Below are positions 2,191 through 42,794 of a DNA stretch of 64,000 nucleotides, one piece after another. The DNA comes from SAR202 cluster bacterium bin22 (GTDB lineage Bacteria; Chloroflexota; Dehalococcoidia; Lucifugimonadales; UBA3495). Location of the stretch: positions 1 through 64,000 of the forward strand of contig MPMM01000012.1 of NCBI GenBank assembly GCA_002238505.1. The letters run 5' to 3'. The notes beneath the pieces were generated by a model. It ran no database searches, had not been told where the DNA came from, and saw only the letters and a list, made by a program, of their open reading frames with translations. Both the position numbers and the translations under genes were made by a program. The first letter of the stretch is position 1. Each line of letters starts with the position of its first letter.

Positions 2191-2201
2191 AAGGAGATAA
2201 C

Positions 2202-3071: not shown

Positions 3072-3073
3072 AA

Positions 3074-8365: not shown

Positions 8366-9366
8366 AGGTCATCCTCCGGATCCCAATACCAGCATACTGA
8401 ACCATCAGACGCCAGGTACCCAGGAAGCCAGTTAATCAGAATGGAACCGTCCTCAAAGCGGCCGGTCACTCCATCATGGCGGCAATCACGATTGGAGAAC
8501 AGAGAAGGAAACTGAGACCAGGCGCGGGCATCGCAATCGAGCGGATACGCCTGACGGATAGAGAGCATAACCTCAGAGACCAACTCCGCATCTACGACGT
8601 CAAGTTGAAGAATCAACCGCCGGAGCTCCTCATCACACGAAGATTGAACGACGCGGTCGATGCCCTCGCGGCCGTCCGACAGGGACCAGCCCCAGATTTC
8701 GCGAGAAGAATCGTAAAACCAACAGCCGGACAACGATTCAAAGGGAACAGCGTCGAAATGAATAAGCAGATTGCCTGACTCATCCCGGCCGGTAACACCG
8801 GCGGAACGTTGACCGCCAAACTCGGGAAGGGTCGTTAACCCCTCGGGCAGCAACAAGCCACCAACCCGAAGGCCATGACATACCCGCTGAAGCCCAACCA
8901 CAGGGTCCCACCCTTCAGCCAAGCACGAAGGTGACTCCAGGGCGAAGGTATCAACTGCAGCTGAGACAACCTCAGCGCCAAAAAGCGGCTCGGCCGGTAA
9001 GGAAACAATGAGACTGCGAAACAAAGCCTCGCACCCCGCGGACGAATCGAGATCCGACTGGACCGAACTTAGCCGAGGAACCGGGGTACTGGTTGGAACC
9101 TGGGTCTGACGCTGCCGCAAAGCTCGCGACGAAATGGACACCGACGGAGTAGGAACCACGATCCCGTCAAAATCGAGCCGATCAGCCGACGCGCTGACAC
9201 GAAAGTCATCAGGAGCAGGCAGAGCCGCAACCTCAACACCAAAACCGACGGATTCCCCGTCAGGACCGCCACCAGCGCCAGACGCCGATGAGCCACAGCC
9301 AACGACGAGCGCAGCCAGGAAGGAGAGACACACAAGAATCCTAATTGACAACAGCAGAGACCTCAT
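8335..9366 (-). CDS. Lipoprotein, duplicated C-terminal module
   Basis: This is a 343-aa protein. The start at 9366 gives a lipoprotein signal (SFLAALVVGC, Cys about 18). The long open frame upstream, reaching 9738, is a shadow of virB4. After a Ser/Gly/Thr-rich linker there are two similar modules. Each has a GVTGR segment, a hydrophobic I-NW/IHF strand and a C-WYWD or C-WFYD motif (VTGRDESGN then CWFYDSSREIW; VTGRFEDGS then CWYWDPEDDLW), so the domain is internally duplicated. It overlaps virB4 by 26 bases, suggesting coupled expression. Function is unknown, probably on the outer face of the membrane. Confidence 0.72.
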   Translation of the reverse strand: MRSLLLSIRILVCLSFLAALVVGCGSSASGAGGGPDGESVGFGVEVAALPAPDDFRVSASADRLDFDGIVVPTPSVSISSRALRQRQTQVPTSTPVPRLSSVQSDLDSSAGCEALFRSLIVSLPAEPLFGAEVVSAAVDTFALESPSCLAEGWDPVVGLQRVCHGLRVGGLLLPEGLTTLPEFGGQRSAGVTGRDESGNLLIHFDAVPFESLSGCWFYDSSREIWGWSLSDGREGIDRVVQSSCDEELRRLILQLDVVDAELVSEVMLSIRQAYPLDCDARAWSQFPSLFSNRDCRHDGVTGRFEDGSILINWLPGYLASDGSVCWYWDPEDDLWLFSFEPSS

Positions 9367-11968
9367 CAATACGACGCTCCTGCTCAACGCTGGCCGCCAG
9401 ACGAGCGGCCAACAGCTCAGCGCCAATGCTAAGACCCTCATCGCCAGACCGCTCCTGCATATTGGCAAATTCAGCAGCGAGGGTGGCATCACTCTCACCA
9501 TGGAACCGCCACGACTGGTCAAGAAGCAGCTCACGCTCCTCAGGCGTGGAGACGACCTCCAGGGGAAAGGCCCCACCATCCTGGTCAATAAAGACACCCT
9601 GGCCACGAATGGCGGTGGAAAGGAAGCCCCTGATGTCACGACCCAAGGCAAGAGCCGTGGCCACCTGATCGAGAGCGGCCGGATCCTGAGACAATGCAAG
9701 CTTGGTGGCGCTGTTTTGCAAAAGGGCGAGACCCGCATGGCCGGTAATTACACCGGCGGACGTATCCTCAGCGAGGAAGTCCTGCACATCCTGCGTGATG
9801 GTAATAAGGCCGAGCTGATGCTTCCGAGCCCGCTTAACAATAGTTAGGAGAGACTCAGCCCCGCTGGGGGTGGCCAGAACCGTCCAGCACTCGTCCACAA
9901 TCAGGCGACGGGGCCGCCGGTTGGTAACCGCAAGCGCCCAGACGACCTGGGCACAGACAGCAATAGCCACCGGCTTGAGAGGACCAGCGAGATTCTTCAG
10001 GTTGAAAGACGTTACCGGAGCTTCCCCAGTCATAAGATCAGGAGCGTCGCCGCACATAAGATACTGGGCCGAGCCGGTGGCAAAAGGCGAAAGAAGATGA
10101 TGGAGCTCGACACCCCCCATTTCCCGGGCTTCGTCGGTCAACAGGAACTTATGAAAATCGGCAATACCGCCGGTGCCCAGAAGGGCATAGGGACCCTTCC
10201 GCTCAAGCTCCTGTTCATAAAAAGCCGTCATACAACGGTCGATGGAAGCCTTCAAAGCAGGCTTTACCTGCCCCTCAAGCATAACGCCGATCAATGAACA
10301 GAGACCCGAAATACGGGTGGCCAAATCCCCAGGATCAGAATAGCCAATGACGAACGGATTAAGCCCGTAACCGGGACTGCCAGGCACGAAGACACGGCCG
10401 CCAAGGGACTCAGTAATCACGCCATACTCACCCTCAGGGTCGATGATGTAAATAGGAATATCCCGCTCCGCCTCCCGGGAAACAATCGCCTTCGTAACGA
10501 AGGACTTGCCGCCGCCAGAGCGAGCCATGATGCACATGTGAGCGTTCATAGCTCGGTCATCGAAAGGATCAAACATGACCGGAGTACGGCTGCGCAAGTC
10601 CATTCCAAACAAAGTGCCGGCGCGTCGATCCAGATCATGGGGAGTAAATGGGAAAAGCCGGAGCATGCTCTCTGAGTCGGTGAAGTCGGAGACGGTAAAA
10701 CCGGCACGACAGAGAGGAAACATCCGTGAAAAAGCCGCCCCCTGCCGGAACTTCAAAAGACGCGACGAGGCCATCAGCGAGCGAAAATGGGAGCTGACAC
10801 GCTCAAGCGAAACCCGTAGACCGTCCCGGTCAGGAGAATAGACGCCGACCATAATGGTCCGCCGGTAAAGCCGTGAGACGCCCCTGGACACCTGCTCCGC
10901 AATCCGAGTGGCATCATCGATGGCGGTTTCGACCTCCGGAGAAACAAGTTTGCCGCTCTGATGGGCCGCGATACGAGCGCCCTCGAAGCGGCTCCGCTGC
11001 ATCTGCAGACGGCTGTGAGACTCCCGCTGGGAAATCGGAAATATCCACAGGGACAAGTCCAGCTCTTCACCGGTCCGGAGCAGCCCTTCAATGAGATCCA
11101 GTGAAATCTGCCTAGGCCACTTGTCGACTTCAAGGAAGGAGACATAGCGCCGGTTGAGCTCAAGATAAGAACTCTCAGCCCGGGCCTGGTAGAAATCCTG
11201 GCGGTACCCGTACCCCATGCCGCTGACACAGGCCTGAAAAAGGAGCGACAGCTCCTCATCACCCATGCGGTCCGCGTTGAGCTGGGCCTGGGTGAGAGCC
11301 GATTGCATCTCCATCTCACGGTCGGCAGCGCACGAGACATACCACTTACGGGAAACCACCAGGCCACAGGTCTCGAGTTCCTCGGTAAAGTCCAGCAGAG
11401 AGTTGGCCACCCGGTTGATAGGACCGTCCTTCATATGCTCCGGACGGGCCTCACGCCACTGGCGCCGAACATCAGAATAATCCGGAGCATGCTGGCGGAT
11501 CAGAACCTGAACCGGAAACTCCATGTTGTTCAGCATGGCAATCCAGCCGGCCATGACGTTATCCGACGTGGAATCACGGCCCTGGACCTCCCAGACCACA
11601 AAGCGGTGCCCGGAGAGGTCTTCAAAAGTGCCGTCGACGACGCGCCGCACTTGGACCAGCATGTTAATGGAAGGCAACGCCGACTCCCGACGAAACCGGC
11701 GGGGAACGAGACGGCCGAGAAACCCACGGCTGCGATCCGGAAGAGACAGGTCGAAAACTGACTCGGAAGGAGGTTCAGGGTCCGGAGGATAATAGCCCGA
11801 CTCAAAATACTGATAATCCTCCGGGTCCGAAAAAGCCCCGAAGTCGGAAAACTGGCCCAAGGACTCAAAATCATCAAAGGCCGGTACATCCTCCGGTCCA
11901 ACAACTTCCGAAGGAGACTCGGGCTTCTTCTTGAAGAAATCAACAACGGCTGAGCCTAAACCAGGCAA
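9341..11968 (-). CDS. virB4: VirB4/TraC-type conjugation ATPase
   Basis: This is the cytoplasmic ATPase that powers type IV secretion and pilus assembly. The 875-aa length fits. Walker A ARSGGGKS is at about residue 480, followed by the typical IYIIDPEGEYG. Walker B RRLIVDECW is near residues 685-697 and the downstream TITQD segment is present. The N-terminal ~430 residues correspond to the VirB4 N domain, preceded by an acidic Pro-rich tail of about 90 residues that is unusual. The start is TTG at 11968 with a strong AGGAGGTG 6 nt upstream. Neighbours are pilin-like, PrgI/VirB3-like and VirB6-like genes in the same direction, as in T4SS operons of Gram-positive type. Confidence 0.92.
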   Translation of the reverse strand: MPGLGSAVVDFFKKKPESPSEVVGPEDVPAFDDFESLGQFSDFGAFSDPEDYQYFESGYYPPDPEPPSESVFDLSLPDRSRGFLGRLVPRRFRRESALPSINMLVQVRRVVDGTFEDLSGHRFVVWEVQGRDSTSDNVMAGWIAMLNNMEFPVQVLIRQHAPDYSDVRRQWREARPEHMKDGPINRVANSLLDFTEELETCGLVVSRKWYVSCAADREMEMQSALTQAQLNADRMGDEELSLLFQACVSGMGYGYRQDFYQARAESSYLELNRRYVSFLEVDKWPRQISLDLIEGLLRTGEELDLSLWIFPISQRESHSRLQMQRSRFEGARIAAHQSGKLVSPEVETAIDDATRIAEQVSRGVSRLYRRTIMVGVYSPDRDGLRVSLERVSSHFRSLMASSRLLKFRQGAAFSRMFPLCRAGFTVSDFTDSESMLRLFPFTPHDLDRRAGTLFGMDLRSRTPVMFDPFDDRAMNAHMCIMARSGGGKSFVTKAIVSREAERDIPIYIIDPEGEYGVITESLGGRVFVPGSPGYGLNPFVIGYSDPGDLATRISGLCSLIGVMLEGQVKPALKASIDRCMTAFYEQELERKGPYALLGTGGIADFHKFLLTDEAREMGGVELHHLLSPFATGSAQYLMCGDAPDLMTGEAPVTSFNLKNLAGPLKPVAIAVCAQVVWALAVTNRRPRRLIVDECWTVLATPSGAESLLTIVKRARKHQLGLITITQDVQDFLAEDTSAGVITGHAGLALLQNSATKLALSQDPAALDQVATALALGRDIRGFLSTAIRGQGVFIDQDGGAFPLEVVSTPEERELLLDQSWRFHGESDATLAAEFANMQERSGDEGLSIGAELLAARLAASVEQERRIDEVSAVVN

Positions 11969-13435: not shown

Positions 13436-16400
13436 TTACATGGAATCGAGAATCTTGTTGAGAGTCTCATTCATCTGTTCCATCTGATTGGTCAAGGCCC
13501 GGGTGCGCTCGGAATCAGCATCGGGGCGCTGCTGCTGTGCGCCGCGGTAGGACTGGCCACGTCGCTCCTGGCCGCCGCCCTCACCCTGACCGCCCGAGCC
13601 ACCCGGGGAACGGGAAGGATAGGCAAAATTGCCACTGAGCAACGAACGAATGCGACCATTAACCTCCTGGGAGCGTCTTATACCGGCACGACCGCCGGCC
13701 ATCCCGGCGTTGAAGCGATCAGAAAGGCTGGGGCCAGGCCTACGGCCAAAAGTACCGCGAGGCTCGCCAGCAGAAGGGGTCTCCGACTCGGAGCCGGAAG
13801 GAGAATCCGCACCACCGTCCGGGGGCAGCGCCGGACGAAAGCCGGAGACCATGCCAGAAGGCGACTGATCACCAGGAGAGGCAGGGCCTACACGCCCACG
13901 GCCGGACTCAGGACCCCCGGACACAACATTACGGGGAGAACCTGGGCGCTGCGCTTGACCACGGCCCACTACGCCAGAAGGACGATTCGCACCAGGACCA
14001 GAGCCGGTTACCTGACCCGCAGCAGGAGACCCAGCAGGTGGAGGAACAACAGCGCCGCTCGGACCCACACCCTGATCAGGCACACCAGAAGCCGAAGCAA
14101 TGCCGCCGCGCGGGCCAACACCGGAGACAGGAGCCCCAGAAGAAGTAAGAGGACGCCCCGCGACAACGGTGCGGTTAAGCGCGCCAAACTCGCCAGGACT
14201 TCGCATAACAGACCACGCGCCACGGGTAGACGCGCCAGGGATACCTCCTGTCATGAGCTGACGGGCGGTATCAACATTAGCGTTGTTATCAAAGGGCTGA
14301 TTGACACGACCCTCCGAATCAGAGAGACCGAGTCGGTCGCGATTCAGACCCAAGCCAATCGAATGCATACGAGTCATACGACCAGGCGGAGTGCGATTCA
14401 ACCCGTCAGGGCCGCGACCCTCAGGTCCCCCAGGCATACCAGGCGCCGGGGGCCCATGCGGGCCGTAAGGAGCGCCGGGAAGGCCGGCCAGAGACGAAGG
14501 CTGAGCCAGCAGACGTCCCCTCCGGTCGCCAGAGTCCGGATACAAACGGTTCGCGGACCTGAACCCAATGTTGCCAACATCCTGACCCATCGCCACAGGA
14601 GCAGGAGGCCCTTCCGGGCCGCCAGGATAGCCCGGCAACTCGCCCTGCACGGGCACCGGCACACCAGCATAGGCGCCGGGCAACGCCCCGGACTGAGAGA
14701 CGGAACCCTCCGGAACCTGGCCGGCTCGGCCGGAAGCAGGGCCGCCGCCAACGGGCGGCGGAGAAGAGCCCGGATCACGCTGACCGGGCAAAGGCGCGCT
14801 GCGGCGCCCAGGAGCCACCTGTTGACCAGATCTCTCATCAGGTCGGCCCACTGCCGGAGGCTGCTGACCTCCAGTAACAGGAGCCCCCGGGCGGGGAGGA
14901 GCCACCACAGCGGCCTGGGCGGTAGGCTCACCGCCGCTGACCTGCCCCGCGGTCTCGCCAGAAGGTGTCTGCATCGACTGCCCGGCGACCACGCCGGACT
15001 CTGCCTGAGCAGACTCAGGGTGGGAAGAAACCGACTGCTGCTGAGGCTGCTCAGACGATACGCTGCCTCCCATACGGCGGCCTAGGTTGAATCCAGCCGA
15101 GCGGACCGAGGAAAATGGGCTGAAGGACCGGCGACCGGTAGTGCTGACGTTCCCAGACTGTCCCTCCGAACCGCCGCCATTATTGACCGAACCGCCGCCT
15201 GGCGGATCATCACCGCCACCGCCACCGCCGCCCGGCGCACGGACGCCGCCGCCAGGGGGCCGCATGCCCCCGCCCCCTCGAACCATGCCCATCATCCCCG
15301 AAGAGGACGAGCCGCCAGCGCCGGCGAATCCGGCCGCAAAGCCAACGCCAGCGGAGGCAACCGTGAGTGCCGCGGCCCCAGCCATCATAAGGAGACTGCC
15401 AAATCCGTCAAAGACACCCTTGGAACCCGGGTTAACGATGTCAGGCACCTTCCCGGCCAGGAAAAAGATGGCGAACGCCATGACAACAGCGATAACGAAG
15501 TCCATCAACGAGTCGGCGTTGGTGCTGTTGAAATAACCCTCGGCGAAGTACAGACCTACAAACAGAACTATTACAACGACAACCTGCTGGAACACCGTGC
15601 CAAGGAACATGGTGACCCACTTGTTGGTCCAATGACTGGTATTAGGAGAGCTGTAGAAGACGAAGGCCAGCGGCGCGAAGACTATGAGAACAGCAAGCAG
15701 AGCCAGACGAATCAACAGTCCAAAGACTACCTTTCCGAAAACATAAAGAATGAAGATGAAAATGAAGAGAACGACGATAAGAATGGCCATCAGGGTGATC
15801 TTGCCCAAAATGAAGCCGGCAACCGCAAGCCCAATGGCATCTCCGAAGGCCTGGGTACTGGAGACAGAGTGCTGGAAAAAAGCAATCAGCGCGTCCAGCA
15901 GGAGGCCGAACACATTTCCCCAGATCCCCCACAGGCTCATGCCGGTATACTGACCGACCAGACAGGTAAGATCACCGGCGAGGATAAGGACCATCTGAAT
16001 GATGTAAAGACTGGAGGCAGCCAGAATGAGACCCAACAGCGCCCGGGGAATGAACTCACGGAGACCCACCGAAGAACGGGGATCAAGGCCAAAGTCATAA
16101 GTCATCCTGAGACCCTGCCAGACCAGAAGAACAAAGAAAACGGCACCGGCAAGAATCCACATAAAGCCCCACATGGAGCGCACGATACTATTGTCCCAGG
16201 TCAGAGCTGAAGGAGTCGCGGTGAGAAAATCAGTGCAAATGGCGGTGCCGGTTAAATTCAACAAGGTGAGGCCAGAAAACGCCTCAGCAAGCACATCGGC
16301 AGGGGGAGCATACGAAGCCCCGGCTGCGCCGTCCTGACATTCATAGAGAAGAGGAATCCTGCGGTCCTCAAACTCGCCGTTCTCATCGCGGGCCAAACAG

Positions 16401-19400
16401 GCCATGGTCGCGCCCTTAATGGGAAGAGGCTGCGACGCAGTCCCGGGTCGGGGAGGATCTCCCTCCTTACCAGGAGTTCCGACGTACGGGGTAACCCATA
16501 TCCGATAATTGAAACCGTCAGCGACGGGCATATCCAGAACGTGCTGATTAAGACCCAGATGGTCGCCATCGACATAACGCGCAGTAGAAGCAGGGGCCTT
16601 CAGCTCAAAAAAAGCTTGACTGGGAAGGTCCCCAGGCTCAGCAGCCTCAAAAGAATGAGGGAAACGGTAAATTGCACCATCCAACTCCTGATTGACACCG
16701 CCGTCAACAGGAAGCATCCCCATGGACCCGAACCAAAAGCCGTCAAGATCATAAATGTACGTTTTATTGTGGTCATCGCCACCACGGAGAGACTTGACCG
16801 TATATTCGCGGGGCAAAAAGAACTCCGCAATCTCGGATCCGGCAGAGGGAGAAGTACGAGTGCCGGCGGCAATAGAAACCTTAACCCCGTCAATGGACTC
16901 ATAGACGTCGCGGCTAACATCCTGATGCCAGCGGTAGTCCCACTCGACGCGAACCAACGAGAGACCCGAATTAAAGGCATGCGGGTTAAAACCTTCCGGC
17001 AATTCCGTATCGGCCGGCGTTCCAACAACCTCCTCAAAGACAGCATTTTCAACCTTGCCAGGATCACGATTATCCGCACCTACAGCATCCGCATACGAAT
17101 AAGCCTGAGCCAGGGACTCTGACGAACCCTGTCCAAAAGAGGCCCCGAGAAAGGGCCGATTGAGATCAAATCTTAGACGGTTAACTACGTCATCATCACC
17201 CTCCGTACTTCTCGGAAAGCTATACCAATCAAGCTTGTTATTGACTGACGGCCCCTCACGCTCTGCCGGATCGAGAGGCACCAAGTCGGCCGGAAGATCG
17301 CCCCGACCACCCTCAAGACTTACGAAATCCACATCGGCAACGCGAAGCTCCAGCGAGGGAAGGGTGACACACGAAGACCCATAGACAACACCTGAACTGG
17401 GGGAGCAAGCAACAGGTTCCTCGACACGAACCTTCTGACAGGTCTCAACGCCAGAGGCAACACTGTCAGCCACGGCATTATGATGAAGAACATCGCCCTC
17501 TACGGTGACCGGGGGCTCATACTCGACCGGACCGCCGTTGGTGGCCCGGGCCAGCTCGTCCAGGCCACCACAGGCGGCCTTGGAGACCTCCTTGGTAGCA
17601 GCCGGAGGCGCATCAGAGCCACCCTGGGCAAATGCCTTGAAAATGCCGGACAGCAGCACCCCCAAACCCTCGCCGATGGCGCCGCCCACAGCGCCAGCCA
17701 CAGCACCAGGAATCGAGGCGACGGCGCCGACGGCAGAACCTACCTTCTTCAGAGCGTCAACAAAAGTATTGGTCTCAGAATCCACCGCACCGGCATAGAA
17801 GACGGGCAACACGGCAAGGCGGCAGACAACCCGGCGAACCTGACGTTTCGGGACAGTGAAAAAGTTCGAACCTCCGGCCGGACCGTCGAAAGTGAGATCA
17901 AGAGATGAGTCTTCGTAGGTGAAAGGACTCCGGGACTCGTAGAAAGCAACCACCAGCAGGTAAGGAGCATTGGGATCAAGATCCGAATCCTCAGGAGTAG
18001 AAGCACAGAGACCTGTTGTCTCAACACACGGCCAGCTGGAGGTATAATCGGCGCGAGCCTCAGGATGTTGAGGGACGCCAAGCCGGTCAGCAGCAATCGG
18101 ATCCGACGAAGAGGCCAAGGTATCAGAGAAGACGCGACTCTCCTTGACAACAAAACTGAACTCATTCAGGGAACGCAGCGACCCGGAGTTATTATCGGAA
18201 GGGGAGGCAACGCCAGCCGAGACCAGGAGAAGCGAAGCGAAAGAGAATCCGGCCCCCCCGCCAGCCCGCTGGAAAGGAAAGAAATTGCCGCCAGCAAGAT
18301 TCTCACAGGTAATATCGGTCCGCGACGCTCCAGAACCCTTATACCCGCAGTTGGTAGCCAGCTGACCAGGCTCGCCTTGAGTGGTAAACCCAGAGTTGAC
18401 CAGCTCCTGAGACCCCTGGGGAGAATTAAACAGGAGCCAGTGCTGATCATCCGGAGAGTTTGACTGGATCTCCGGAAGGGAGAAGATCTGCCAGGACAAG
18501 TCCTCGAAATTGGCAGGCCAGCGTACCCGGGTGAGCGCCGGATCCTGATGGGTAGAACCCGACTGAGACTCAGGGTAAACGGTATCAAGAACCGGACGGC
18601 GGAAGCCCCGGTGAGGACCCTCCGACACAGGAAGATTATCGCGGTACCGCCCAGGAAGAGTACGGTCATGCTGGGTATAAGACCACGGTTTCGTACCAAA
18701 GGCTGGGAGCACAGCCAGATCGGGGCCGATGGACCCAAAGTACCAGCCAAAATCAGAGCGATGGGTCGGATCCAGAGTCAAGTTGACATGCAACTCATCT
18801 CCCCCAGGAACCTGGCGCTGGCTCAGAAACGAGTAACCCGCCCCCAGGCTGCCGACACGGCCCTGAAGCGTCGAGCTACCGATGTAACTCACGTCAACCG
18901 GTATAACATTCCGGGTATAAGTGCCATCACCTACCGGAACCTGTATTTCACGCCCCTGGCTGCTGGCCACAAAAGTAGTGTCGAAAAACTCCCCATTATT
19001 TATATCGGTCCCCTCAAAGTGAAGATCAACCGAGTCCGGCTCCGACCGGGTCACGGTTGACGATGAACAGGAACCGCCATTATAAACACAGGTAACCGTG
19101 GTGCTGCTGCTGATGGTAATCGTTGGAAAAGTGCCAACGAGCGTAATGCGGCGCCCTCCGCCATGAGCAGCAGTCCGGGAGGCGATAGTAATATCCGCAA
19201 TACCAGCAACCAGATCATGGAGGAACTGGGCGTCGTCACGCTGCACCCCACCGCTCGGGTTATCAACGTCCAGCCACTGACCGTTGAAAGAAGTAAGACG
19301 GCTGGCGTCACCCGCAGCAGGATCCGGGGGCTTCTGCGGACCAACACGCCGATACGCGTTATAAAGATCACGATGAGCCTGCGTATTGCCATTAGTCTTA

Positions 19401-19915
19401 TGCCAAGGAGTACGAGGGAAATAGTCGTCAGATCCCACTGACTTGAGAATCGACGGATCTGCGCCTGGCTGACAAGGGTCAAGATTAGTCAAGAGATGAC
19501 GCATGCGGTGAGCCAGGGCGTCATAATTACAGAGGATCTTCAAGTCCGCCCCAGCCGTGTCAAACCGGAAGTAATGGCCAACGTCAATCAGCTCCGCAAT
19601 CGAGCCAAAAGGGGCTACCGCACGCGACTGAGGGTGCTTGCCAGCAAAATCGACCCAAGGTTTGTTGTCAGGAAGAGTGACCGCAGGCCCAGAGCCACCT
19701 GGAAGATACGGAAGGTAATCCTGCTCATCAATGGCATAGACCATCGAAGGGTCACCCCACTGAGACGTCCAGCACATCCAGGTAGAACCGGTATCAGCCG
19801 TCACTGTCGATGACGGCACGAGAACGAAAATAATTAAAAGGAGGCAAGCCACGGCACAGATATACCAGCGCCGCGGCGGCCAAAAGGCACAAAAGAACCT
19901 TAAAAAGTTACCCAT
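13436..19915 (-). CDS. Giant VirB6/TrbL-like T4SS membrane protein with ectodomain
   Basis: This 2159-aa protein has three parts. (1) A signal-anchor (about residues 17-40) and a roughly 1190-residue exported region with many aromatic and beta-rich repeats and scattered cysteines. (2) A polytopic membrane domain (about 1235-1530, some 6-7 helices) resembling VirB6/TrbL channel proteins. (3) A cytoplasmic or flexible tail of about 630 residues made mainly of Gly, Pro, Ser and Gln, ending in a short coiled coil (ERTRALTNQMEQMNETL). VirB6 proteins are usually 300-900 aa. The exported N-terminal part is therefore very large and may reach across a thick envelope or contact the recipient. A TATAAT hexamer lies 7 bases before the ATG, so the transcript may be leaderless. 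Confidence 0.8.
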   Translation of the reverse strand: MGNFLRFFCAFWPPRRWYICAVACLLLIIFVLVPSSTVTADTGSTWMCWTSQWGDPSMVYAIDEQDYLPYLPGGSGPAVTLPDNKPWVDFAGKHPQSRAVAPFGSIAELIDVGHYFRFDTAGADLKILCNYDALAHRMRHLLTNLDPCQPGADPSILKSVGSDDYFPRTPWHKTNGNTQAHRDLYNAYRRVGPQKPPDPAAGDASRLTSFNGQWLDVDNPSGGVQRDDAQFLHDLVAGIADITIASRTAAHGGGRRITLVGTFPTITISSSTTVTCVYNGGSCSSSTVTRSEPDSVDLHFEGTDINNGEFFDTTFVASSQGREIQVPVGDGTYTRNVIPVDVSYIGSSTLQGRVGSLGAGYSFLSQRQVPGGDELHVNLTLDPTHRSDFGWYFGSIGPDLAVLPAFGTKPWSYTQHDRTLPGRYRDNLPVSEGPHRGFRRPVLDTVYPESQSGSTHQDPALTRVRWPANFEDLSWQIFSLPEIQSNSPDDQHWLLFNSPQGSQELVNSGFTTQGEPGQLATNCGYKGSGASRTDITCENLAGGNFFPFQRAGGGAGFSFASLLLVSAGVASPSDNNSGSLRSLNEFSFVVKESRVFSDTLASSSDPIAADRLGVPQHPEARADYTSSWPCVETTGLCASTPEDSDLDPNAPYLLVVAFYESRSPFTYEDSSLDLTFDGPAGGSNFFTVPKRQVRRVVCRLAVLPVFYAGAVDSETNTFVDALKKVGSAVGAVASIPGAVAGAVGGAIGEGLGVLLSGIFKAFAQGGSDAPPAATKEVSKAACGGLDELARATNGGPVEYEPPVTVEGDVLHHNAVADSVASGVETCQKVRVEEPVACSPSSGVVYGSSCVTLPSLELRVADVDFVSLEGGRGDLPADLVPLDPAEREGPSVNNKLDWYSFPRSTEGDDDVVNRLRFDLNRPFLGASFGQGSSESLAQAYSYADAVGADNRDPGKVENAVFEEVVGTPADTELPEGFNPHAFNSGLSLVRVEWDYRWHQDVSRDVYESIDGVKVSIAAGTRTSPSAGSEIAEFFLPREYTVKSLRGGDDHNKTYIYDLDGFWFGSMGMLPVDGGVNQELDGAIYRFPHSFEAAEPGDLPSQAFFELKAPASTARYVDGDHLGLNQHVLDMPVADGFNYRIWVTPYVGTPGKEGDPPRPGTASQPLPIKGATMACLARDENGEFEDRRIPLLYECQDGAAGASYAPPADVLAEAFSGLTLLNLTGTAICTDFLTATPSALTWDNSIVRSMWGFMWILAGAVFFVLLVWQGLRMTYDFGLDPRSSVGLREFIPRALLGLILAASSLYIIQMVLILAGDLTCLVGQYTGMSLWGIWGNVFGLLLDALIAFFQHSVSSTQAFGDAIGLAVAGFILGKITLMAILIVVLFIFIFILYVFGKVVFGLLIRLALLAVLIVFAPLAFVFYSSPNTSHWTNKWVTMFLGTVFQQVVVVIVLFVGLYFAEGYFNSTNADSLMDFVIAVVMAFAIFFLAGKVPDIVNPGSKGVFDGFGSLLMMAGAAALTVASAGVGFAAGFAGAGGSSSSGMMGMVRGGGGMRPPGGGVRAPGGGGGGGDDPPGGGSVNNGGGSEGQSGNVSTTGRRSFSPFSSVRSAGFNLGRRMGGSVSSEQPQQQSVSSHPESAQAESGVVAGQSMQTPSGETAGQVSGGEPTAQAAVVAPPRPGAPVTGGQQPPAVGRPDERSGQQVAPGRRSAPLPGQRDPGSSPPPVGGGPASGRAGQVPEGSVSQSGALPGAYAGVPVPVQGELPGYPGGPEGPPAPVAMGQDVGNIGFRSANRLYPDSGDRRGRLLAQPSSLAGLPGAPYGPHGPPAPGMPGGPEGRGPDGLNRTPPGRMTRMHSIGLGLNRDRLGLSDSEGRVNQPFDNNANVDTARQLMTGGIPGASTRGAWSVMRSPGEFGALNRTVVAGRPLTSSGAPVSGVGPRGGIASASGVPDQGVGPSGAVVPPPAGSPAAGQVTGSGPGANRPSGVVGRGQAQRPGSPRNVVSGGPESGRGRVGPASPGDQSPSGMVSGFRPALPPDGGADSPSGSESETPSAGEPRGTFGRRPGPSLSDRFNAGMAGGRAGIRRSQEVNGRIRSLLSGNFAYPSRSPGGSGGQGEGGGQERRGQSYRGAQQQRPDADSERTRALTNQMEQMNETLNKILDSM

Positions 19916-27983: not shown

Positions 27984-29375
27984 ATGAAGCTTACCTGCTC
28001 CAAAGACAACCTGCGCCAGGGAGTCGCCACGGTCCGGCGCGCCATAAACAACCGCAACACGCTGCCAATCTGCGACAACATATTGCTGGAGGCCCAGGAC
28101 AACCAGATACTCCTCACCGGCACCAACCTGGAAACCACGATCATGACAAGAATTCCAGCGGTCATCGACCGGGAGGGCAGCGTGACCCTGCCCAACCGGC
28201 TGTTCGCCGAATACATTGGAACCATAGCAGAGGAGACGATCAACCTGGACTCGCCAGAGGAAAAGGCATACACCATCTTCACTGCCGGCGGCCACACCGC
28301 CACGATCCACGGAGCCAACCCCGAGGACTATCCCCCGCGGCCCACGGTCAACGAGGGAATCGCCGGCAGCGTAGAGGCCGAGGAATTCGGCAGAGCACTC
28401 AACCGGGTCGTAGGCGCCACCGCCAAGGAAGAAAGCCGACCGGCACTGACCGGAGTCAACATCAGGACCAGCGGCCCCGCCTTCAAGGTGGCAGCCGCCG
28501 ACGGGTTCCAGCTGGCAGTGGACCAGGGCGACCTGCTGGAACCTCCGGCCGAAGACCTGGACGTGATCATCAAAGCCAACACCATCCACGAGATAATCCG
28601 GAACGCCCAGGGCGCCACCGAACCGGTGCGCTTCCTGATGGTTCCCGAACGGCACCAGGCGCTCTTCATGATCGGAAGATTGAAGATCTTCACCCAGCTC
28701 ATTGACCAAGCCTTTCCCAACACCGAAAAGCTGATACCTACAACCTACAGCGCCCGAATGGTGGTGGCCACCAAGGACTTCAACCGGGCCGCGAAGACCG
28801 CCGCCCTGTTTGCCAAGGACGACAGCAAAATTATCCGAATGAGAACGCAGAAGACCGAAGGCCTGGCCGACCCGGGTGTAGGTCAGTTGACCGGCCGCTC
28901 AGACCAGATAGGCGAGACCTCGATCACCTTCCGGGTGAAGGAATACGAGGGCGACAACGCCAAGGTTGCCCTGAACGGCGACTACATGCTGGAAATAGGA
29001 GACGTCGCCGGCGACGACGTGGAAATCCGAATAGACCGCACGGACACGCCGGTCGTCATAGGAATACCGGGAAGTGAACATTACCACAGGGTCATCATGC
29101 CCATGTTCACGAGCTGGCCGGACGAGGGACCAATTATGGTAACCGCAAACGGTCCTGCGCCAAGCCAGCCAACGGCCGGCGAAGACGACGACGTCATCCA
29201 GGTGGAAGACACTAACGAGTCCCCGGAGCCAGCCGCAAGTGTCGAACCGGACGAGGAGAACGAATTCGAAAGGAGCAACGCCAATCCGGAGGACCCATTC
29301 TCCGAACCCACCAACAGTGAAGACTTCGAGGAAGCGGAGAAGGAACAAATGGCCGCCGGCAGCGCCGAAGGCTAA
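27984..29375 (+). CDS. dnaN: DNA polymerase III beta subunit (sliding clamp) with acidic tail
   Basis: This is the ring-shaped processivity factor that tethers DNA polymerase and repair proteins to DNA. The three-domain clamp spans residues 1-373, with conserved landmarks such as the N-terminal MKLTCSKDNL, the central region with ADGFQLAV, and the C-terminal HRVIMPMF, which normally ends the protein. Here about 85 extra residues follow (380-463), strongly acidic and Glu/Asp/Pro-rich. A chromosomal copy presumably exists, so this is probably an element-specific clamp. A ribosome site (AAGGAGAG) precedes the ATG and an intrinsic terminator lies just upstream. It is followed by the ubiquitin-like cassette. 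Confidence 0.93.
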   Translation: MKLTCSKDNLRQGVATVRRAINNRNTLPICDNILLEAQDNQILLTGTNLETTIMTRIPAVIDREGSVTLPNRLFAEYIGTIAEETINLDSPEEKAYTIFTAGGHTATIHGANPEDYPPRPTVNEGIAGSVEAEEFGRALNRVVGATAKEESRPALTGVNIRTSGPAFKVAAADGFQLAVDQGDLLEPPAEDLDVIIKANTIHEIIRNAQGATEPVRFLMVPERHQALFMIGRLKIFTQLIDQAFPNTEKLIPTTYSARMVVATKDFNRAAKTAALFAKDDSKIIRMRTQKTEGLADPGVGQLTGRSDQIGETSITFRVKEYEGDNAKVALNGDYMLEIGDVAGDDVEIRIDRTDTPVVIGIPGSEHYHRVIMPMFTSWPDEGPIMVTANGPAPSQPTAGEDDDVIQVEDTNESPEPAASVEPDEENEFERSNANPEDPFSEPTNSEDFEEAEKEQMAAGSAEG

Positions 29376-29476: not shown

Positions 29477-29872
29477 ATGAACAGAGTCTTTCTTTACAAC
29501 GGAACAGAGTACCCGGACCCGGACCCCAACATGAGCGTTGAGGAGGTCAAGAGCCACCTAGCCGAATTCATGCCCGAACTGGCCAACGCAACCGTCGCCG
29601 AGAAGAGCCAAGGGCTGGAAACCGTCTACGAATTCACCGTAAAGGTGGGAACAAAGGGCCTGAACGGGACCGAAGTCATTGCCGCAACGCTCGATGAGTT
29701 GAAGCCCTGCCGTCCAAAGATCCTGAAGATGTTGGCCGAGATTGACGTCTCGGGAGAAGACGTCTACGACGCCCTGGACCAGGGACGGCTTGCCGAGGCA
29801 AGCGCAGAAGCGGACGCGCTGCTGAAATCGGCTCAGCACGTCGCCTCCATGATCAACGACACCATAGGTTAG
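29477..29872 (+). CDS. PRTRC protein C-like ubiquitin-like modifier (Prok_Ub) with C-terminal extension
   Basis: The first 61 residues match the PRTRC system protein C / Prok_Ub family: RVFLYNGTEYPDPDPNMSVEEV near the start, then MPELANATV, and KVGTKG (56-61). Family members I recall end at or near that TKG glycine. Here 70 more residues follow (62-131, mostly helical), so the modifier would need cleavage after Gly61 to expose a free glycine, possibly by the JAB protein encoded three genes on. The ribosome site is AAGGAGAG. It is first of the ubiquitin-like cassette and lies 101 bases behind dnaN. The Ubl assignment rests on sequence pattern; conjugation is inferred. Confidence 0.82.
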   Translation: MNRVFLYNGTEYPDPDPNMSVEEVKSHLAEFMPELANATVAEKSQGLETVYEFTVKVGTKGLNGTEVIAATLDELKPCRPKILKMLAEIDVSGEDVYDALDQGRLAEASAEADALLKSAQHVASMINDTIG

Positions 29873-29875
29873 CAA

Positions 29876-30718
29876 ATGCTGAAGCTCCAGGACCTGTGCC
29901 AAAAGCTTGAACCCATGTTAATTCGAATCGACCACCTGGCCGAGGCGCTAAGCGCCACCAAGGTAAATAACCGGGTTACCCGCCTGATACGGGAGTTCCT
30001 CCCGGGCCTGGAAGGCAGCATACGGAACCAGGGCGCCATGTATACGCTGGCGGCCGGGTTCTACCGGCGATTCTTTCCGCTGGAGCTGGGAACCATCCTC
30101 GACGAGTCAATGGAGGACGGTACCGACGAAGACAACGAGTTCACGATGGAATACTTCGAACACATACGGATAGCTCCAATGGGAGTCCATCCCGAACACG
30201 CCATGTACACGACACAGGGGCAGCACAGCATCTTCTCCTACGCGTACATCCTGGGCGACGTCACCGAGTTCGCAGGCGAGATCATAGAAGAAAGCTACGC
30301 AGGTACCCTGCGCGCCATGCACAGCGAGGAGCTCGAAATGGGAGACAACCTCGGAGAGATAATCGAGGATATACCCCAAAAACCCTTCAAGCTTCAGGAA
30401 ATCAGAGGGGCCCTTACGGGAACCAGATTCCAGCGATTCACCGAGGTTGTCGAGTACGCCATGGCAATACCCGACAACATATTCGTCCGAAAGAACACTG
30501 AAAACCGGTTCGAACTAGCCGACAACGGACCGTGGACGTGGGAAAACGTCCAGCGCCTCACGGCGGAATGGAAAGAGGGAGAACGGCTGCAGAGACGGGC
30601 CCACAACGCGGGCTTAACGTGGGAACCCGTTCTTGAGAAGCAGATGGCCCGAATTCTGAAACTTCTCATAGACTACCGAGAAAAGCAGGAGGGACCACCC
30701 GAGGAGATGCAAACGTGA
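29876..30718 (+). CDS. Helical protein of the PRTRC cassette, possibly PRTRC protein F
   Basis: This is a 280-aa, largely helical, soluble protein. In PRTRC operons, a helical protein (F) accompanies the modifier and E2, and the position between them here fits. I do not see a diagnostic motif, so the assignment is by context. It starts three bases after the Ubl stop. Its stop overlaps the E2-like gene (GTGA), so all are likely expressed together. Confidence 0.6.
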   Translation: MLKLQDLCQKLEPMLIRIDHLAEALSATKVNNRVTRLIREFLPGLEGSIRNQGAMYTLAAGFYRRFFPLELGTILDESMEDGTDEDNEFTMEYFEHIRIAPMGVHPEHAMYTTQGQHSIFSYAYILGDVTEFAGEIIEESYAGTLRAMHSEELEMGDNLGEIIEDIPQKPFKLQEIRGALTGTRFQRFTEVVEYAMAIPDNIFVRKNTENRFELADNGPWTWENVQRLTAEWKEGERLQRRAHNAGLTWEPVLEKQMARILKLLIDYREKQEGPPEEMQT

Positions 30719-31386
30719 TAGCAGGACTGGAATTCGACCCCGACAAGCTGGACTTCCAGACCGACGAAGGAAAGCTAACCCACCGGCTGGACTGCTACGA
30801 GAGCGGCCTGGTGCTGACCAGGTACCTGGACAATGGTATCACCCTAACGCACGTGGACGGAGACGCCCTGTTGCGCGTGATTCAGAGAAACCTGCAGAGC
30901 AGCACGCCACTGCTGCCAGAGGGAACCGTCCACTACCGGAACACCAAGGCCGGCCCGGAATTCACGATCTGGGTTCCGCCCAGGACCTGGCCGGTAACAC
31001 TGGTCACCGGCGCCGCGACCAAGCCCGAGCAATTAAAGATTCCCCTGCCGGGGCTGCTGTTCACCTGCTCAGCGAACCGGCCGCCGGTAATCTTCGCGGC
31101 CCTGGCCAGGCCGAAAACAGGCGACGAAGCCGTCTATAAAGCCCCACTGCTGAACTGCTTCGAGAACGGCACATCGTGCCCGGGAAACCACATATTCCCG
31201 TCCCAGCCGGACAAAATCCCGGCGTCCTTCTTCGAGAGCCGGTTCAGTCCCCACCAGGGCACCGGCATGCTCGCCAGCCACCAGGACAGCATACTCAGCC
31301 TGTGGCGCGACATCGACGGCAAACGAAAATTCCCCAAGGAGTCCTTGAGATACCATGGGACCTTCAACGAAACCTACAATAGGTGA
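30715..31386 (+). CDS. E2-like conjugating protein (PRTRC protein B / Prok-E2_D)
   Basis: This is a 223-aa protein. It has the pattern of PRTRC system protein B, which is considered a prokaryotic E2-like (UBC-fold) family: a hydrophobic PLPGLLF strand, then APLLNCFENGTSC with Cys155 in the position expected for the catalytic cysteine (family pattern: aPx-Nv-dG-xC-G). A second cysteine, Cys148, lies close by. It would receive the activated Ubl from the E1-like enzyme. A GTG start overlaps the preceding stop and AGGAG lies 9 nt upstream. It overlaps the JAB gene by 32 bases. Confidence 0.78.
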   Translation: MIAGLEFDPDKLDFQTDEGKLTHRLDCYESGLVLTRYLDNGITLTHVDGDALLRVIQRNLQSSTPLLPEGTVHYRNTKAGPEFTIWVPPRTWPVTLVTGAATKPEQLKIPLPGLLFTCSANRPPVIFAALARPKTGDEAVYKAPLLNCFENGTSCPGNHIFPSQPDKIPASFFESRFSPHQGTGMLASHQDSILSLWRDIDGKRKFPKESLRYHGTFNETYNR

Positions 31387-31972
31387 GCTGGAGCTGGCAG
31401 ACCTGCCCGCCGGCTACGTCTTCAAGAACCGCAACGGTTACTCAGGTGCAAGAGGACGGGCCTACACATACATCACCGCGGCCAACGGGATCTTCATCAC
31501 TGCAAGCAGCGAATCACTGGAGGCAACGACTCTGGTAGCCCCCTCAGACGTGGCCATCAGAGGCCTCGATGAAGAGCAGGAAAGTATAACGCTGCCCAAC
31601 GGGAAGCTGCCGGCCAAAGCCATCAGAGAGCAAATCCTGTGGACCATGGAAGACCTGGACACCGAACGGCTGTTCAGCATCACATGGGATCCTGAGACCG
31701 GGACATACAAAGCCGCCAGACCGGGCCAAAGTGGCACGGCGACCGCGCTGGAATACGACAAACAGCAAAATGCTGTGCTGGAACTGCACTCCCACGGAAG
31801 GTCACAGCCGTTCTTCTCGAGCACCGACAACGCCGACGAGCAGGGATTCAGGATCTACGGCGTCGCGGGTACCCGCAAGACCGCAGCGGGAACGCACAAC
31901 GCGTTCCAGCTCCGCCTGGGGATCTACGGGGTATTCCGAAGAATTAAACTGACTGAAATAGCCGAGGAATGA
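31355..31972 (+). CDS. JAB/JAMM metallo-isopeptidase (PRTRC protein A-like)
   Basis: This is a 205-aa protein. The JAMM signature HxH-x7-S-x2-D is intact: His145, His147, Ser155 and Asp158. Glu143 or an earlier acidic residue could be the catalytic acid. JAB proteases cleave ubiquitin-like modifiers from targets or trim precursors. In this cassette it probably processes the C-terminal extension of the Ubl and/or removes the Ubl. The gene overlaps the E2-like gene and its stop overlaps the E1-like start (ATGA). PRTRC protein A is the corresponding family. Confidence 0.8.
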   Translation: MGPSTKPTIGELELADLPAGYVFKNRNGYSGARGRAYTYITAANGIFITASSESLEATTLVAPSDVAIRGLDEEQESITLPNGKLPAKAIREQILWTMEDLDTERLFSITWDPETGTYKAARPGQSGTATALEYDKQQNAVLELHSHGRSQPFFSSTDNADEQGFRIYGVAGTRKTAAGTHNAFQLRLGIYGVFRRIKLTEIAEE

Positions 31973-32763
31973 AAATGGCATCGTTAGAAAGCAAAGTCAG
32001 CTGCCCAAAGGTCCACAAAGTCGCAATAGTCGGCTGCGGCGGCACAGGAAGCCTGCTCGCCGAAAAGCTGATGAGACTGCTCACCGGAACAACCGTGGAC
32101 CTGATCCTGATCGACCACGACGAGGTGGAACCACACAACCTGCTCCGTCAAGGCTTCTACGAGAAGGACCTGGGCAAAAATAAAGCCCTGACGCTGGCCG
32201 AGAGGCTGGCCAGGAACTTCCGAAGAAAGGTAACGGCCATCCCCGAAAAGGCTTCAGCGCACAACCTCAACCGAGCGGAGTTAATCATAGGCTGCGTCGA
32301 CAACGCCAAGGCCAGAAGAACGCTCGATGAGCTATACAAGCCGGACCGGTCGGGACTACCGAGAGGCCACGGCTGGTACATCGATGTCGGGAACAGCGAA
32401 AACACCGGGCAGCTGCTGATCGGGAACGCCACGGCGGATAGCAAAAAGCCCGTCACGGACTATTACCGCGAGGTGGAAGGAATTAACCTGATCCAAAAGC
32501 TGCCAACGCCAGGAACCCAGCAGCCAGGGCTGCTGATCGACGCGGTCGAAGAATACAACCCCGACCGGGACTGCGCCATGGCAGTGATGCTGCAGGAACA
32601 GGACCCGGCCATTAACGACGCTATGGCCACGCTGGCCAACAACACGGTCTACCGGTTGGTGACCGGCCGGTGCAACCACATGGCCCAATACCTGAACCTG
32701 GAGTTCGGTAATCTCACGACAATCGCAGCAACGCCGGAAAACATCAAGAAAGTAATATCCTGA
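31969..32763 (+). CDS. ThiF/E1-like adenylyltransferase (PRTRC ThiF)
   Basis: Activates the C-terminus of a ubiquitin-like protein with ATP (role known for E1/ThiF family). The nucleotide-binding GCGGTG motif is at residues 22-27, followed by IDHDEVEPHNLLRQ (aspartates 49 and 51 and the Asn/Arg that contact ATP). The conserved KNKA follows at 70-73. A DRDCAM segment near residue 203 offers a cysteine for thioester transfer. The 264-aa length fits PRTRC ThiF proteins. It starts within ATGA of the JAB gene. MoeB/ThiF relatives would have a rhodanese or C-terminal CxxC pair, which is absent. Confidence 0.88.
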   Translation: MKMASLESKVSCPKVHKVAIVGCGGTGSLLAEKLMRLLTGTTVDLILIDHDEVEPHNLLRQGFYEKDLGKNKALTLAERLARNFRRKVTAIPEKASAHNLNRAELIIGCVDNAKARRTLDELYKPDRSGLPRGHGWYIDVGNSENTGQLLIGNATADSKKPVTDYYREVEGINLIQKLPTPGTQQPGLLIDAVEEYNPDRDCAMAVMLQEQDPAINDAMATLANNTVYRLVTGRCNHMAQYLNLEFGNLTTIAATPENIKKVIS

Positions 32764-33286: not shown

Positions 33287-33295
33287 GAGGCGGTG

Positions 33296-33757
33296 ATGCT
33301 GGCCTACCACACCGGGAACATCTTCGAGTCCGAGGCTCAGGCCATCGTGAATCCCACCAATTGCCTGGGACCGATGGGAGCAGGACTGGCGAAGCAATTC
33401 AGCCGCCGCTACCCGGCCAACACGGCGCAATACCGCAGGGAATGCGCCCAGGGGCTGATCAAGCCAGGGCGCCTCAACTGGTTCAACACCGGCCGGGAGA
33501 CCCCGGAGTGGATAGTTAACTTCCCAACCAAGAACGACTACCGCCGTCCCAGCAGACTGGAATACATCCAGGAAGGACTGGACACCCTGGCCGAAGAGCT
33601 GACCAAGAGGGCAATAGCATCAATTGCCATCCCGCCACTGGGCTGCGGGCTCGGCGGACTGCCCTGGAACGCGGTCCGCGCAGAGATAGAAACCAGATTA
33701 AGCGGGTTGGAACAATGCACGATAATTCTCCTGGAACCTCCAGTCCAACGACGTTGA
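33296..33757 (+). CDS. Macro domain protein (DarG/TARG1-like ADP-ribosyl hydrolase)
   Basis: This is a 153-aa single macro domain. Signature VNPTNCLGPMGAGLAKQF at about 18-35 and the later PPLGCGLGGLPW loop are as in macro domains that remove ADP-ribose from DNA or proteins. The NFPTKNDYRRPSRLEYI region carries the Lys and Arg typical of the DarG/TARG1 branch. No DarT toxin gene is adjacent. I chose ATG at 33296 (AGGAGG 5 nt upstream); a GTG three bases earlier gives one more residue. It is embedded between the ubiquitin-like cassette and the MrfA-like helicase. Confidence 0.88.
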   Translation: MLAYHTGNIFESEAQAIVNPTNCLGPMGAGLAKQFSRRYPANTAQYRRECAQGLIKPGRLNWFNTGRETPEWIVNFPTKNDYRRPSRLEYIQEGLDTLAEELTKRAIASIAIPPLGCGLGGLPWNAVRAEIETRLSGLEQCTIILLEPPVQRR

Positions 33758-36463: not shown

Positions 36464-37168
36464 CTAATAGCTCTGTGACCAAACCCCGAGACGGGCAACA
36501 TACATCCAGCAGAGAGAGCCGTCAGACGGTTTCTCTTCAGCATCAGTAGACCAATATACAATGATATTATTTGCTCCGTCACGACCAGAAGCGCGGCGCG
36601 GCCACTTAGAAAGGTCATTCTCCAATCGAAGCCCTGACGGAACAGTATTATCACCCACCTTCAAAGTCCCAGACGGAGCGGCAGTTTCATCACCCGCGGC
36701 AAAGCAGTTACTAAGGTTCCGTTCCGACTTAGTGACGTCTGTAGAACTAACACCCGTCGTCATGACGACAGGGTTCCAGACCTCGCGAGCACACTCGCCC
36801 CGCTGAACCTGTATCTGCGAGATGACCTGCTTTATCCTAGAGGCATTGGAAGCGCCGCGCTGGAACACCAACTGGTTCTGCAAAATACCGTCGCAACTGG
36901 TGCCTGAATCGGTCGTAAGAGCAACGCCGCCAACCGGCTCAAGGACCGCCTCGGAAACGACGTTCGGCAAAATGAAGGCCATGCCCATCACGATCAAACC
37001 GACAACGACGCCGATCAGACCCATCTTCGCCTGGGCCATCTTGCTGGGATCCCCTTGGCCCAGCATGAAGTTATAACCGACAAACACGACGGCGACGCCG
37101 GAAATGCTGCCGCCGCAGATGAGCAAAAGACGGGTCAGCCCGCCGATCGCAGTGACAAATTCATCCAT
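36464..37168 (-). CDS. VirB2-like pilin with secreted C-terminal domain (paralog 1)
   Basis: This is a 234-aa protein. Two hydrophobic helices (about 16-35 and 47-70) are linked by a turn with GQGDPSKMAQAK, matching VirB2-type pilins. A ~155-residue secreted-type domain with cysteines (CDGI, GEC, NCFAAG, LCWMYV) follows. The paralog at 37225 has the same layout and the same ending (PSDG-CW-Y-ARL-W). It has a strong ribosome site (GGAGGAGG). Standard VirB2 pilins are short, so the added domain is unusual and might decorate the pilus or bind recipients. A channel-lining role is also possible. Confidence 0.72.
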   Translation of the reverse strand: MDEFVTAIGGLTRLLLICGGSISGVAVVFVGYNFMLGQGDPSKMAQAKMGLIGVVVGLIVMGMAFILPNVVSEAVLEPVGGVALTTDSGTSCDGILQNQLVFQRGASNASRIKQVISQIQVQRGECAREVWNPVVMTTGVSSTDVTKSERNLSNCFAAGDETAAPSGTLKVGDNTVPSGLRLENDLSKWPRRASGRDGANNIIVYWSTDAEEKPSDGSLCWMYVARLGVWSQSY

Positions 37169-41784: not shown

Positions 41785-42794
41785 ATGGTGAAAAAAATCT
41801 AGCGGAAAACATCGCCAGCCAGATCCTGCAGATGATAGAGGAGGGCGGACTCGCCCCCTGGGAGAAGGACTGGAACAGCAGCGGGCTAATGCCCCTCAAC
41901 GCCAAGACCAATAAGCCGTACCGGGGCATCAACATCTGGATCACCATGGCGTCCCAGATGCTCCACAACTACCAGGACCCCAGGTGGATCACCCTCAAGC
42001 AGGCCAACAATCTTGGCGGCCAAGTAATCAAGGGTGAGAAGTCCACAACCATCGTTTTCTGGCAGTTTCCCAACAGCCCGAAGGCAGAGAGCCGCGACAG
42101 CGACCCCATAATCGACGCAGGCGACGACGCCGCCGACAACGGCGAAGAAACCAGGCGCCAAAACCGGAGAGGGCCGATATGCAAGCCTTACCGCGTCTTC
42201 AACGTAGAGCAGACCACCGGCTGCCGCCTCAAGGAGCTCCAGAGAGCGCTACCGGTCGATCACGATCCGATAGCCGCCGCAGAGCTGATCACCGCCGAGA
42301 TGGCCGACCCGCCTGAAATCATCCACTACGCGACGGCGGACCACGCTCCCCACTACCGCCCGTCCACAGACCAGGTATTCCTGCCGGAGACCTCGCGCTA
42401 CAACCGGATGGAATCCTACTACGACACCAGGTTCCACGAGCTGGCCCACGCCACCGGAGCCCCCAAGCGCCTGCACCGATTCGACAGCAGCAGATTTGAG
42501 CTTCACGACCGGGGCATCGAGGAAATGATAGCGGCGATGACCTCCGCCATGCTGTCGAACGCCTGCGGCCTCCCCAGGGAGACGATAACGCGAAATGCAG
42601 CCTATATCCACGCATGGGCAGACACGATAAGGGAGGATCCAGGGATCCTGATAACCGCGGCCCAAAGGGCCCAGAAGGCGTACAACTGGATCACAAACGC
42701 GCCGCCCGACGGACCGGCCAACGATGACACGGAAGCCGAGGACGACAAAATCATGGCGACCGCCGACAGAGAGCCGGCGCTGGCAGCAGCCTGA
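41785..42794 (+). pseudogene. ardC: ArdC-like antirestriction protein, apparent frameshift at its start
   Basis: An N-terminal ArdC-type ssDNA-binding domain (with GLAPWEKDW and GINIWITM) is followed by a zincin domain (HELAH, 202-206 counted from the ATG at 41832). The family protects incoming plasmid DNA from restriction. The open frame has no usable ATG/GTG/TTG before 41832, yet coding sequence for the normal N-terminus (AENIASQILQ) lies upstream. AGGAG and ATG (41785) precede it one base out of phase, and seven A's (41791-41797) sit between. A -1 slip there would join them. This is either programmed frameshifting, transcript slippage, a real mutation or a sequencing error. If not, translation starts at 41832 without a ribosome site. 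Confidence 0.72.

Follow-up and report, generated by a model that had tools for sequence, protein, structure and literature searches.

A PRTRC-type ubiquitin-like protein with a helical tail behind its conserved glycine: a possible fusion precursor for JAMM processing

Bacterial operons with predicted ubiquitin-like (Ubl) conjugation were described by Iyer et al. in 2006, and in the available part of that account the Ubl of type 6d is a small, unfused protein whose C-terminal glycine is conserved (PMC1779556). According to the accessible sections of the work on Caldiarchaeum, CsRpn11 removes a nine-residue tail of pro-ubiquitin after Gly-Gly, and pro-ubiquitin that has not been cut resists E1 (PMC5654768, PMC6043591). 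The available text on the bacterial Bil system states that BilC opens BilA, and it also describes the fusion of eukaryotic ubiquitin to ribosomal proteins and the tandem ubiquitin genes (PMC11354881).

We analysed a stretch of 64,000 nucleotides (hereafter, the window) from SAR202 cluster bacterium bin22, corresponding to positions 1 to 64,000 of contig MPMM01000012.1. Its PRTRC-type operon is summarized in Table 1. The reading frame 29477-29872 is open from the ATG at 29477 to the stop codon at 29870-29872 and encodes 131 aa; its start is preceded by a good Shine-Dalgarno sequence, AAAGGAGAGAGGC-ATG. The NCBIfam model TIGR03738 (PRTRC_C), which is of the 'domain' type, matches residues 2-61 over its positions 6-66 of 66 with 49.3 bits (cut-off 45.95), a score and a coverage up to the model end that place the window Ubl in PRTRC protein C. 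Pfam Prok_Ub matches residues 1-59 with 50.2 bits (cut-off 25). The motif KVGTKG occupies residues 56-61, the codon of Gly61 being 29657-29659, and 70 residues lie beyond it. The open frame and the agreement of the two profiles thus bear out what the sequence-only reading had noticed, namely 70 residues after Gly61 of a PRTRC C-type Ubl. In an AlphaFold2 model built from a 44-row alignment, the beta-grasp fold was predicted confidently (pLDDT about 90 up to residue 50), and the glycine tip (59-62) was predicted to be disordered (pLDDT <50). The window has a single Ubl unit and not a tandem array of the polyubiquitin type, and the protein continues 70 residues past Gly61, unlike the type 6d Ubl, which ends at its conserved glycine.

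Table 1. The Ubl operon of the window and its flanking genes (positions of the window)
Feature	Coordinates	Strand	Remarks
DnaN-like sliding clamp	27984..29375	+	directly upstream; TIGR00663 215 bits
Ubl domain	29477..29659	+	residues 1-61, end ...KVGTKG; TIGR03738, Prok_Ub, AF2 pLDDT
Helical tail and stop	29660..29872	+	residues 62-131; fills the 'Ext' slot of relatives; homology borderline
H280, alpha-helical, 280 aa	29876..30718	+	conserved next gene; same slot and similar length in relatives
PRTRC_B / Prok-E2_D, E2-like	30715..31386	+	Pfam Prok-E2_D 50.3 bits
PRTRC_A / JAB metalloprotease	31355..31972	+	Pfam Prok-JAB above cut-off
PRTRC ThiF, E1-like	31969..32763	+	TIGR03736 135.3 bits, Pfam ThiF
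Acidic protein, 167 aa	32783..33286	+	weakly similar proteins after E1 in several relatives

All genes of the type 6d set (Ubl, helical protein, E2-like, JAB and E1-like) are present together in this operon, and many relatives likewise have a DnaN-like gene close to their PRTRC cluster. Among the frames between DnaN and the Ubl in the window, no ParB or protein E gene was noticed. For H280, no match above chance was obtained with Pfam or NCBIfam. The candidate catalytic residue of the E2-like protein, Cys155 (codon starting at 31177), is present in 50 of 50 ungapped rows, and that of the E1-like protein, Cys202 (codon starting at 32572), in 49 of 49. The E1-like protein also keeps its nucleotide site (GxGGTG, D49, N57, R60 and K72); with 264 aa it gives one ThiF match and lacks the two adenylation domains of the Bil enzyme. 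In the JAB protein, Glu104 is conserved in 46 of 47 rows and the motif H145-x-H147-x7-S155-x2-D158 in 46 of 46, so that the JAMM/MPN+ signature (Glu plus HxHx7SxxD) is found here as E104 and HSHGRSQPFFSSTD from residue 145. Proteins similar to the acidic 167-aa protein were detected by tblastn at several loci with E values of 1e-3 to 1e-8. Among the PRTRC proteins, only the Ubl passes its NCBI cut-off; as B (54.8 bits, cut-off 131.45), A (51.5, cut-off 101.8) and ThiF (135.3, cut-off 144.75) fall below theirs, the window system appears to be a divergent relative of PRTRC. Right after the operon, at 33293-33757 (+), we observed a Macro domain close to the DarG antitoxin (190 bits, cut-off 250), whereas no DarT toxin was noticed.

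Judged from its other genes, the window seems to belong to a conjugative element or a plasmid. It encodes a TraG/HerA-like ATPase (9341-11968, -), a very large membrane protein (13436-19915, -), a T4SS pilin (36464-37168, -) and an ArdC-type anti-restriction protein with a zincin-like domain (41832-42794, +); the contig C23 measures 102,540 bp. The large chain of ribonucleotide reductase is encoded at 55285-58398 (+), where the Pfam barrel domain extends over residues 115-844 against a model of 523 positions, and it carries an inserted stretch (NPC-VTGDTLV...VLHN-CGEQ) that resembles an intein. The ThyX-like protein of 475 aa encoded at 59433-60860 (+) gives two Thy1 matches and is seemingly a duplicated thymidylate synthase fold.

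We then compared the Ubl with those of related loci, of which 46 were named from a scan of GTDB contigs (mostly Chloroflexota), 5 came from a viral scan and more from genome searches. Profile searches revealed that the slot after the Ubl in the Chloroflexota relatives is occupied by a helical protein of ~75 aa, which we call Ext. In a set of 53 loci (L042-L092, L035 and L036), Ext was present in this slot at 49, as a separate ORF at 39 and fused to the Ubl at 10, and was absent from the other 4. The separate copies lie in frame 0, 1 or 2 relative to the Ubl at 15, 11 and 13 loci, respectively, mostly with their own ATG and a GGAGG-like site; because they occur in any frame and have these signals, we concluded that they are real genes and not sequencing breaks. 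Their occurrence in all three frames also excluded a programmed stop read-through that would yield the fusion at split loci. The sequence-only reading had pictured the fused protein as a lone anomaly, and this picture had to be given up: the tail of the window stands where relatives encode a separate protein downstream of the Ubl, and the window fusion is one case of a general pattern.

Modelled alone, Ext gave a confident fold (pLDDT 91.9) with helices at residues 3-11, 19-27, 36-41 and 43-72. Pfam and PHROGs searches with 27 members agreed on no known family; TerB appeared for only 2 of the 27, with a best E of 5e-4 below the TerB cut-off, and was rejected. A sequence search of solved structures for the fold of the tail or Ext gave a best E of 0.42, and Foldseek with the Ext model returned two matches of E 7 or worse, the same two being all that VIA-align gave. 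With the whole-protein model, Foldseek reached E 0.14 at best. VIA-align paired residues 1-60 of the whole protein with ubiquitin chains (Z about 5) and residues 62-131 with assorted helical bundles (Z up to 6.1). In these fold comparisons, neither a match nor its absence proves anything. At one locus, L075, Ext shares a 387-aa frame (ORF about 2012 to 3175) with the next gene, H280, and not with the Ubl; this joint frame could be real or could be an assembly slip.

Is the tail of the window an Ext? AlphaFold2 placed helices at residues 64-74, 81-88 and 102-130, with confidence below that of the Ubl domain, and in this model, whose alignment included Ext rows, the tail looks like a real protein. 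Counted after Gly61, the helices lie at 3-13, 20-27, 35-38 and 41-69, and their position, length and spacing fit Ext. With the window left out of the Ext profile, the tail scored 4.8 bits, a value reached by 8 of 947 scored shuffles; a wider profile gave 5.0 bits, reached by 12 of 1000, and hhalign of the tail with Ext gave E 0.0058. By sequence, therefore, the homology is only suggestive; we regard the tail as probably a diverged Ext. The 1145 six-frame segments of the window contained no other Ext, with nothing better than E 3.4. The idea that an Ext makes up the first part of H280 was rejected, as this protein has the usual length.

We next examined what follows the glycine more widely. An xKG/xRG glycine was present in all 75 Ubls that we tallied, with a motif search that admitted several xKG variants. 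Among these, 20 were Ext-type fusions, 8 had other long tails, 30 had 1-24 residues after the glycine and 17 ended at it; every tail longer than 24 aa (28 of 28) was found beside an intact JAMM protease. The sequence-only reading would have been refuted by homologs that routinely carry the extension and have no conserved glycine. Extension did turn out to be routine, but the glycine was retained at 75 of 75 loci. Its premise that the family ends near the glycine held for one part of the family only: in a larger set of 91 classified loci, 30 stop exactly at this boundary (29 at Gly and one, Pelobacter L170, which is JAB-less, at Ala in GTKA), whereas 61 extend further.

The tails themselves are diverse. 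E1-based viral scans identified Ubls 140-170 aa long, whose helical tails end in GF and show homology to Ext when profiles are compared (hhalign E 3e-6; the phage-tail profile scores the Ext of L042 at 22.7 bits, and 0 of 500 shuffles scored as high). Tails unlike Ext or each other were found at L089, L090, L140, L151, L162 and L163 and, among named records, in Rhodoferax (L176), Dyella (L172), Azonexus (L185), Burkholderia phage BgVeeders33 (L178) and Manganitrophus (L094 and L174). When 16 tails were compared with one another by BLASTP, only short and weak pairs emerged and none was convincing, the best being E 0.002 over 20 residues. The Ubls of L098 and L162 are almost identical up to GTGKG, and what follows GTGKG is unrelated. 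Similarly, among 20 prophage-like loci, all with distinct proteins, the mean pairwise identity was 93.9% in the 25 alignment columns leading up to the glycine and fell to 18.3% in the next 25. This drop indicates that the break in selection sits at the glycine.

A further likeness to ubiquitin genes was observed in Bacillus phage vB_BauM_KLEB27-3 (OM634661), where a 235-aa ORF annotated as hypothetical (172930-173637, corresponding to L179:5001-5708) consists of four head-to-tail Ubl units followed by MPRIVVK. Each unit reads M(T/A)RTVKY...GVKG, and TIGR03738 matches the protein four times (61.0 bits in all) with a DNA period of 171 bp. The units are 89.5-100% identical in protein and 79-84% in DNA, and each pair differs by 18-31 synonymous versus 0-6 non-synonymous codons. 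Downstream lie a PRTRC_A-like gene with the JAMM motif and a gene annotated as ThiF. Judged from its sequence, this array is laid out like a polyubiquitin gene, and as it makes little sense otherwise, the units are presumably cut apart after the glycine. We did not find a second poly-Ubl in the phage records or viral contigs searched.

We also compared the occurrence of tails with that of JAB. For the 91-locus count, 27 of 28 examined plasmid and phage regions were pooled with the other loci, and JAB was scored as absent when the fetched flank (5-6 kb) contained neither a JAMM ORF nor a JAB-profile match. The count gave 61 loci with JAB and a tail, 14 with JAB and no tail, 16 with neither and none with a tail in the absence of JAB (Fisher p 5.6e-10, a value that ignores phylogeny). 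Outside it stand L035, L053, L056 and L072 (JAB truncated or beyond the contig end), L084 and L085 (incomplete operon), L182 (Ubl unannotated), L061 and L086 (omitted inadvertently; both JAB-positive with a tail), the viral loci L097, L150, L157, L159, L160 and L164 (no Ubl found), and the 20 prophage loci, all of which have both JAMM and a tail. Four of the 16 JAB-less loci (L165, L167, L173 and L187) have no E1 in the flank either. These four are Deinococcus plasmids with a Ubl and an E2-like gene and no E1 or JAB found in 5 kb flanks; they are either reduced PRTRC clusters or have their enzymes encoded elsewhere. On the tree, JAB changes four times, of which only two provide supported independent contrasts. 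When pairs were drawn at random 200 times, the tail changed in the same direction as JAB in a mean of 1.7 of the 2 contrasts, showed no difference in 0.3 and never opposed it; with a sign test p of at least 0.5, the contrasts are too few for a test. Since 14 of the 75 JAB-positive loci have a tail-less Ubl, JAB must have a further role, and it probably removes conjugates as well.

We also asked where the fusion of the window comes from. A tree of E1, E2 and JAB grouped the window, on a long branch, with split-Ext loci (SH-aLRT 99), in which case its fusion would be independent of the clade of 10 fused loci. An AU test did not reject a grouping of the window with those 10 (p 0.065), and another E1 tree left its placement unresolved. 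At L050, the fusion is nested in a group of split relatives. The window locus had no close relative among 393 genomes of its class, the best E1 match being 47%, and viral scans with its E1 and JAB returned distant loci only.

From these comparisons we consider it likely that the Ubl of the window is made as a fusion precursor, and that the JAB of the operon cuts it after Gly61 and so frees a conjugatable Ubl and a helical partner. We infer the cut itself, JAB as the cutter, the conjugation and the role of the tail, and the processing idea, which draws on sequence data, appears well supported by comparison. In this scheme, the gene would encode a Ubl precursor, the JAB metalloprotease would cut it after Gly61, and the freed glycine carboxylate would be activated by E1 (Cys202), handed to E2 (Cys155) and attached to targets. 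The same cut would release the ~70-residue helical protein, which in relatives is the independent product Ext. Such a fusion would supply the Ubl and the helical protein in equal amounts and, as long as the protease is missing, would keep the Ubl from acting, comparable to the eukaryotic ubiquitin-ribosomal protein fusions. For the family as a whole, we lean slightly towards a broader statement: the PRTRC-type Ubls of mobile elements and phages may be precursors with swappable partners, or poly-Ubls, opened after xKG by their own JAMM protease; the partner (here Ext) would be a dedicated one that also exists as a separate gene, and fusion would have arisen several times, only together with JAMM.

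The identity of the tail allows for two other readings. It is somewhat unlikely, and yet worth serious consideration, that the tail is a chance in-frame extension without function and not an Ext, in which case processing at Gly61 would still occur and the tail would be discarded. The weak homology to Ext (4.8-5.0 bits, reached by 8 of 947 and 12 of 1000 shuffles) would fit such an origin, as would the frequency of short, useless-looking tails of 1-24 aa (30 of 75 loci); against it, the tail has the slot, the length (70 residues versus 73-76 for Ext) and the helix pattern of Ext, it scores higher against Ext than any other tail without an Ext label, the following gene shows no extension and no second Ext was detected in the window. 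We give very little credence to an assembly or frameshift artefact that joined two genes. Although the genome is a draft of 58 contigs and one fused relative (L039) is frameshifted, the tail is predicted to be helical, no start codon with a ribosome site lies near residue 62, and 10 related loci make up a fused clade.

The fate of the fused protein can be questioned as well. That it is never cut, and that the Ubl is a fixed module which brings the helical domain to E1, E2 or JAB without being conjugated, seems improbable to us: GTKG is kept in the fused forms despite its disordered tip, the catalytic cysteines of E1 and E2 are conserved, and an uncut scaffold would not predict the unlike tails, the tandem Ubl array or the absence of tails without JAB. 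The 387-aa ORF of L075, with Ext fused to the other neighbour, speaks for the scaffold, as Ext may be a plain complex partner. A cut by a host protease, with JAB only removing conjugates, would explain why JAB is kept at the 14 loci whose Ubl needs no trimming; it is quite improbable given that a JAMM gene is present in the operon of all 28 long-tailed loci, that 16 of 16 JAB-less loci are tail-less, and that JAMM enzymes perform such trimming in archaea and in Bil. Processing after Gly61 by the JAB of the operon is thus the reading that we prefer.

This preferred scheme can be set against the known systems. The window resembles type 6d in having a Ubl, an alpha-helical protein and E2-like, JAB and E1-like proteins; Ext, tails and tandem arrays, in contrast, are not mentioned for type 6d in the available part of that account (PMC1779556). 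It would resemble Caldiarchaeum in that a JAMM protease exposes the C-terminus of the modifier, and differs, as far as the accessible sections go, in that there the tail has nine residues and no domain, the cut site is Gly-Gly and not xKG, and a RING protein is present (PMC5654768, PMC6043591). With Bil it would share the trimming of a bacterial Ubl by a JAMM protease ahead of activation; according to the available text, however, BilA contains two Ubl domains and BilD a pair of adenylation domains, as against the single domain of the 264-aa window E1 (PMC11354881). Eukaryotic fusions and polyubiquitin, as outlined in the same text, would be alike in that ubiquitin is directly followed by an independent protein or by more ubiquitin and is cut at the glycine (PMC11354881). 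Unlike in those fusions, the partner here varies among close relatives. Eukaryotic ubiquitin precursors are, moreover, cut by other DUB families. A literature search of partial coverage found no description of the tail pattern of PRTRC Ubls and no functional study of a PRTRC Ubl. The tails make the conjugation question approachable by a simple cleavage assay with the window JAB and the 131-aa protein, and they suggest a rule open to checking wherever such genes are sequenced, namely that tails do not occur without a JAMM protease. The trimming of Ubl precursors by JAMM proteases is already known from CsRpn11 and, in the text available, from BilC; what is new here are the interchangeable partners, both split and fused, and the poly-Ubl in the PRTRC family, which suggest that the two genetic formats of ubiquitin, the fusion precursor and the tandem array, also occur in bacteria and phages.
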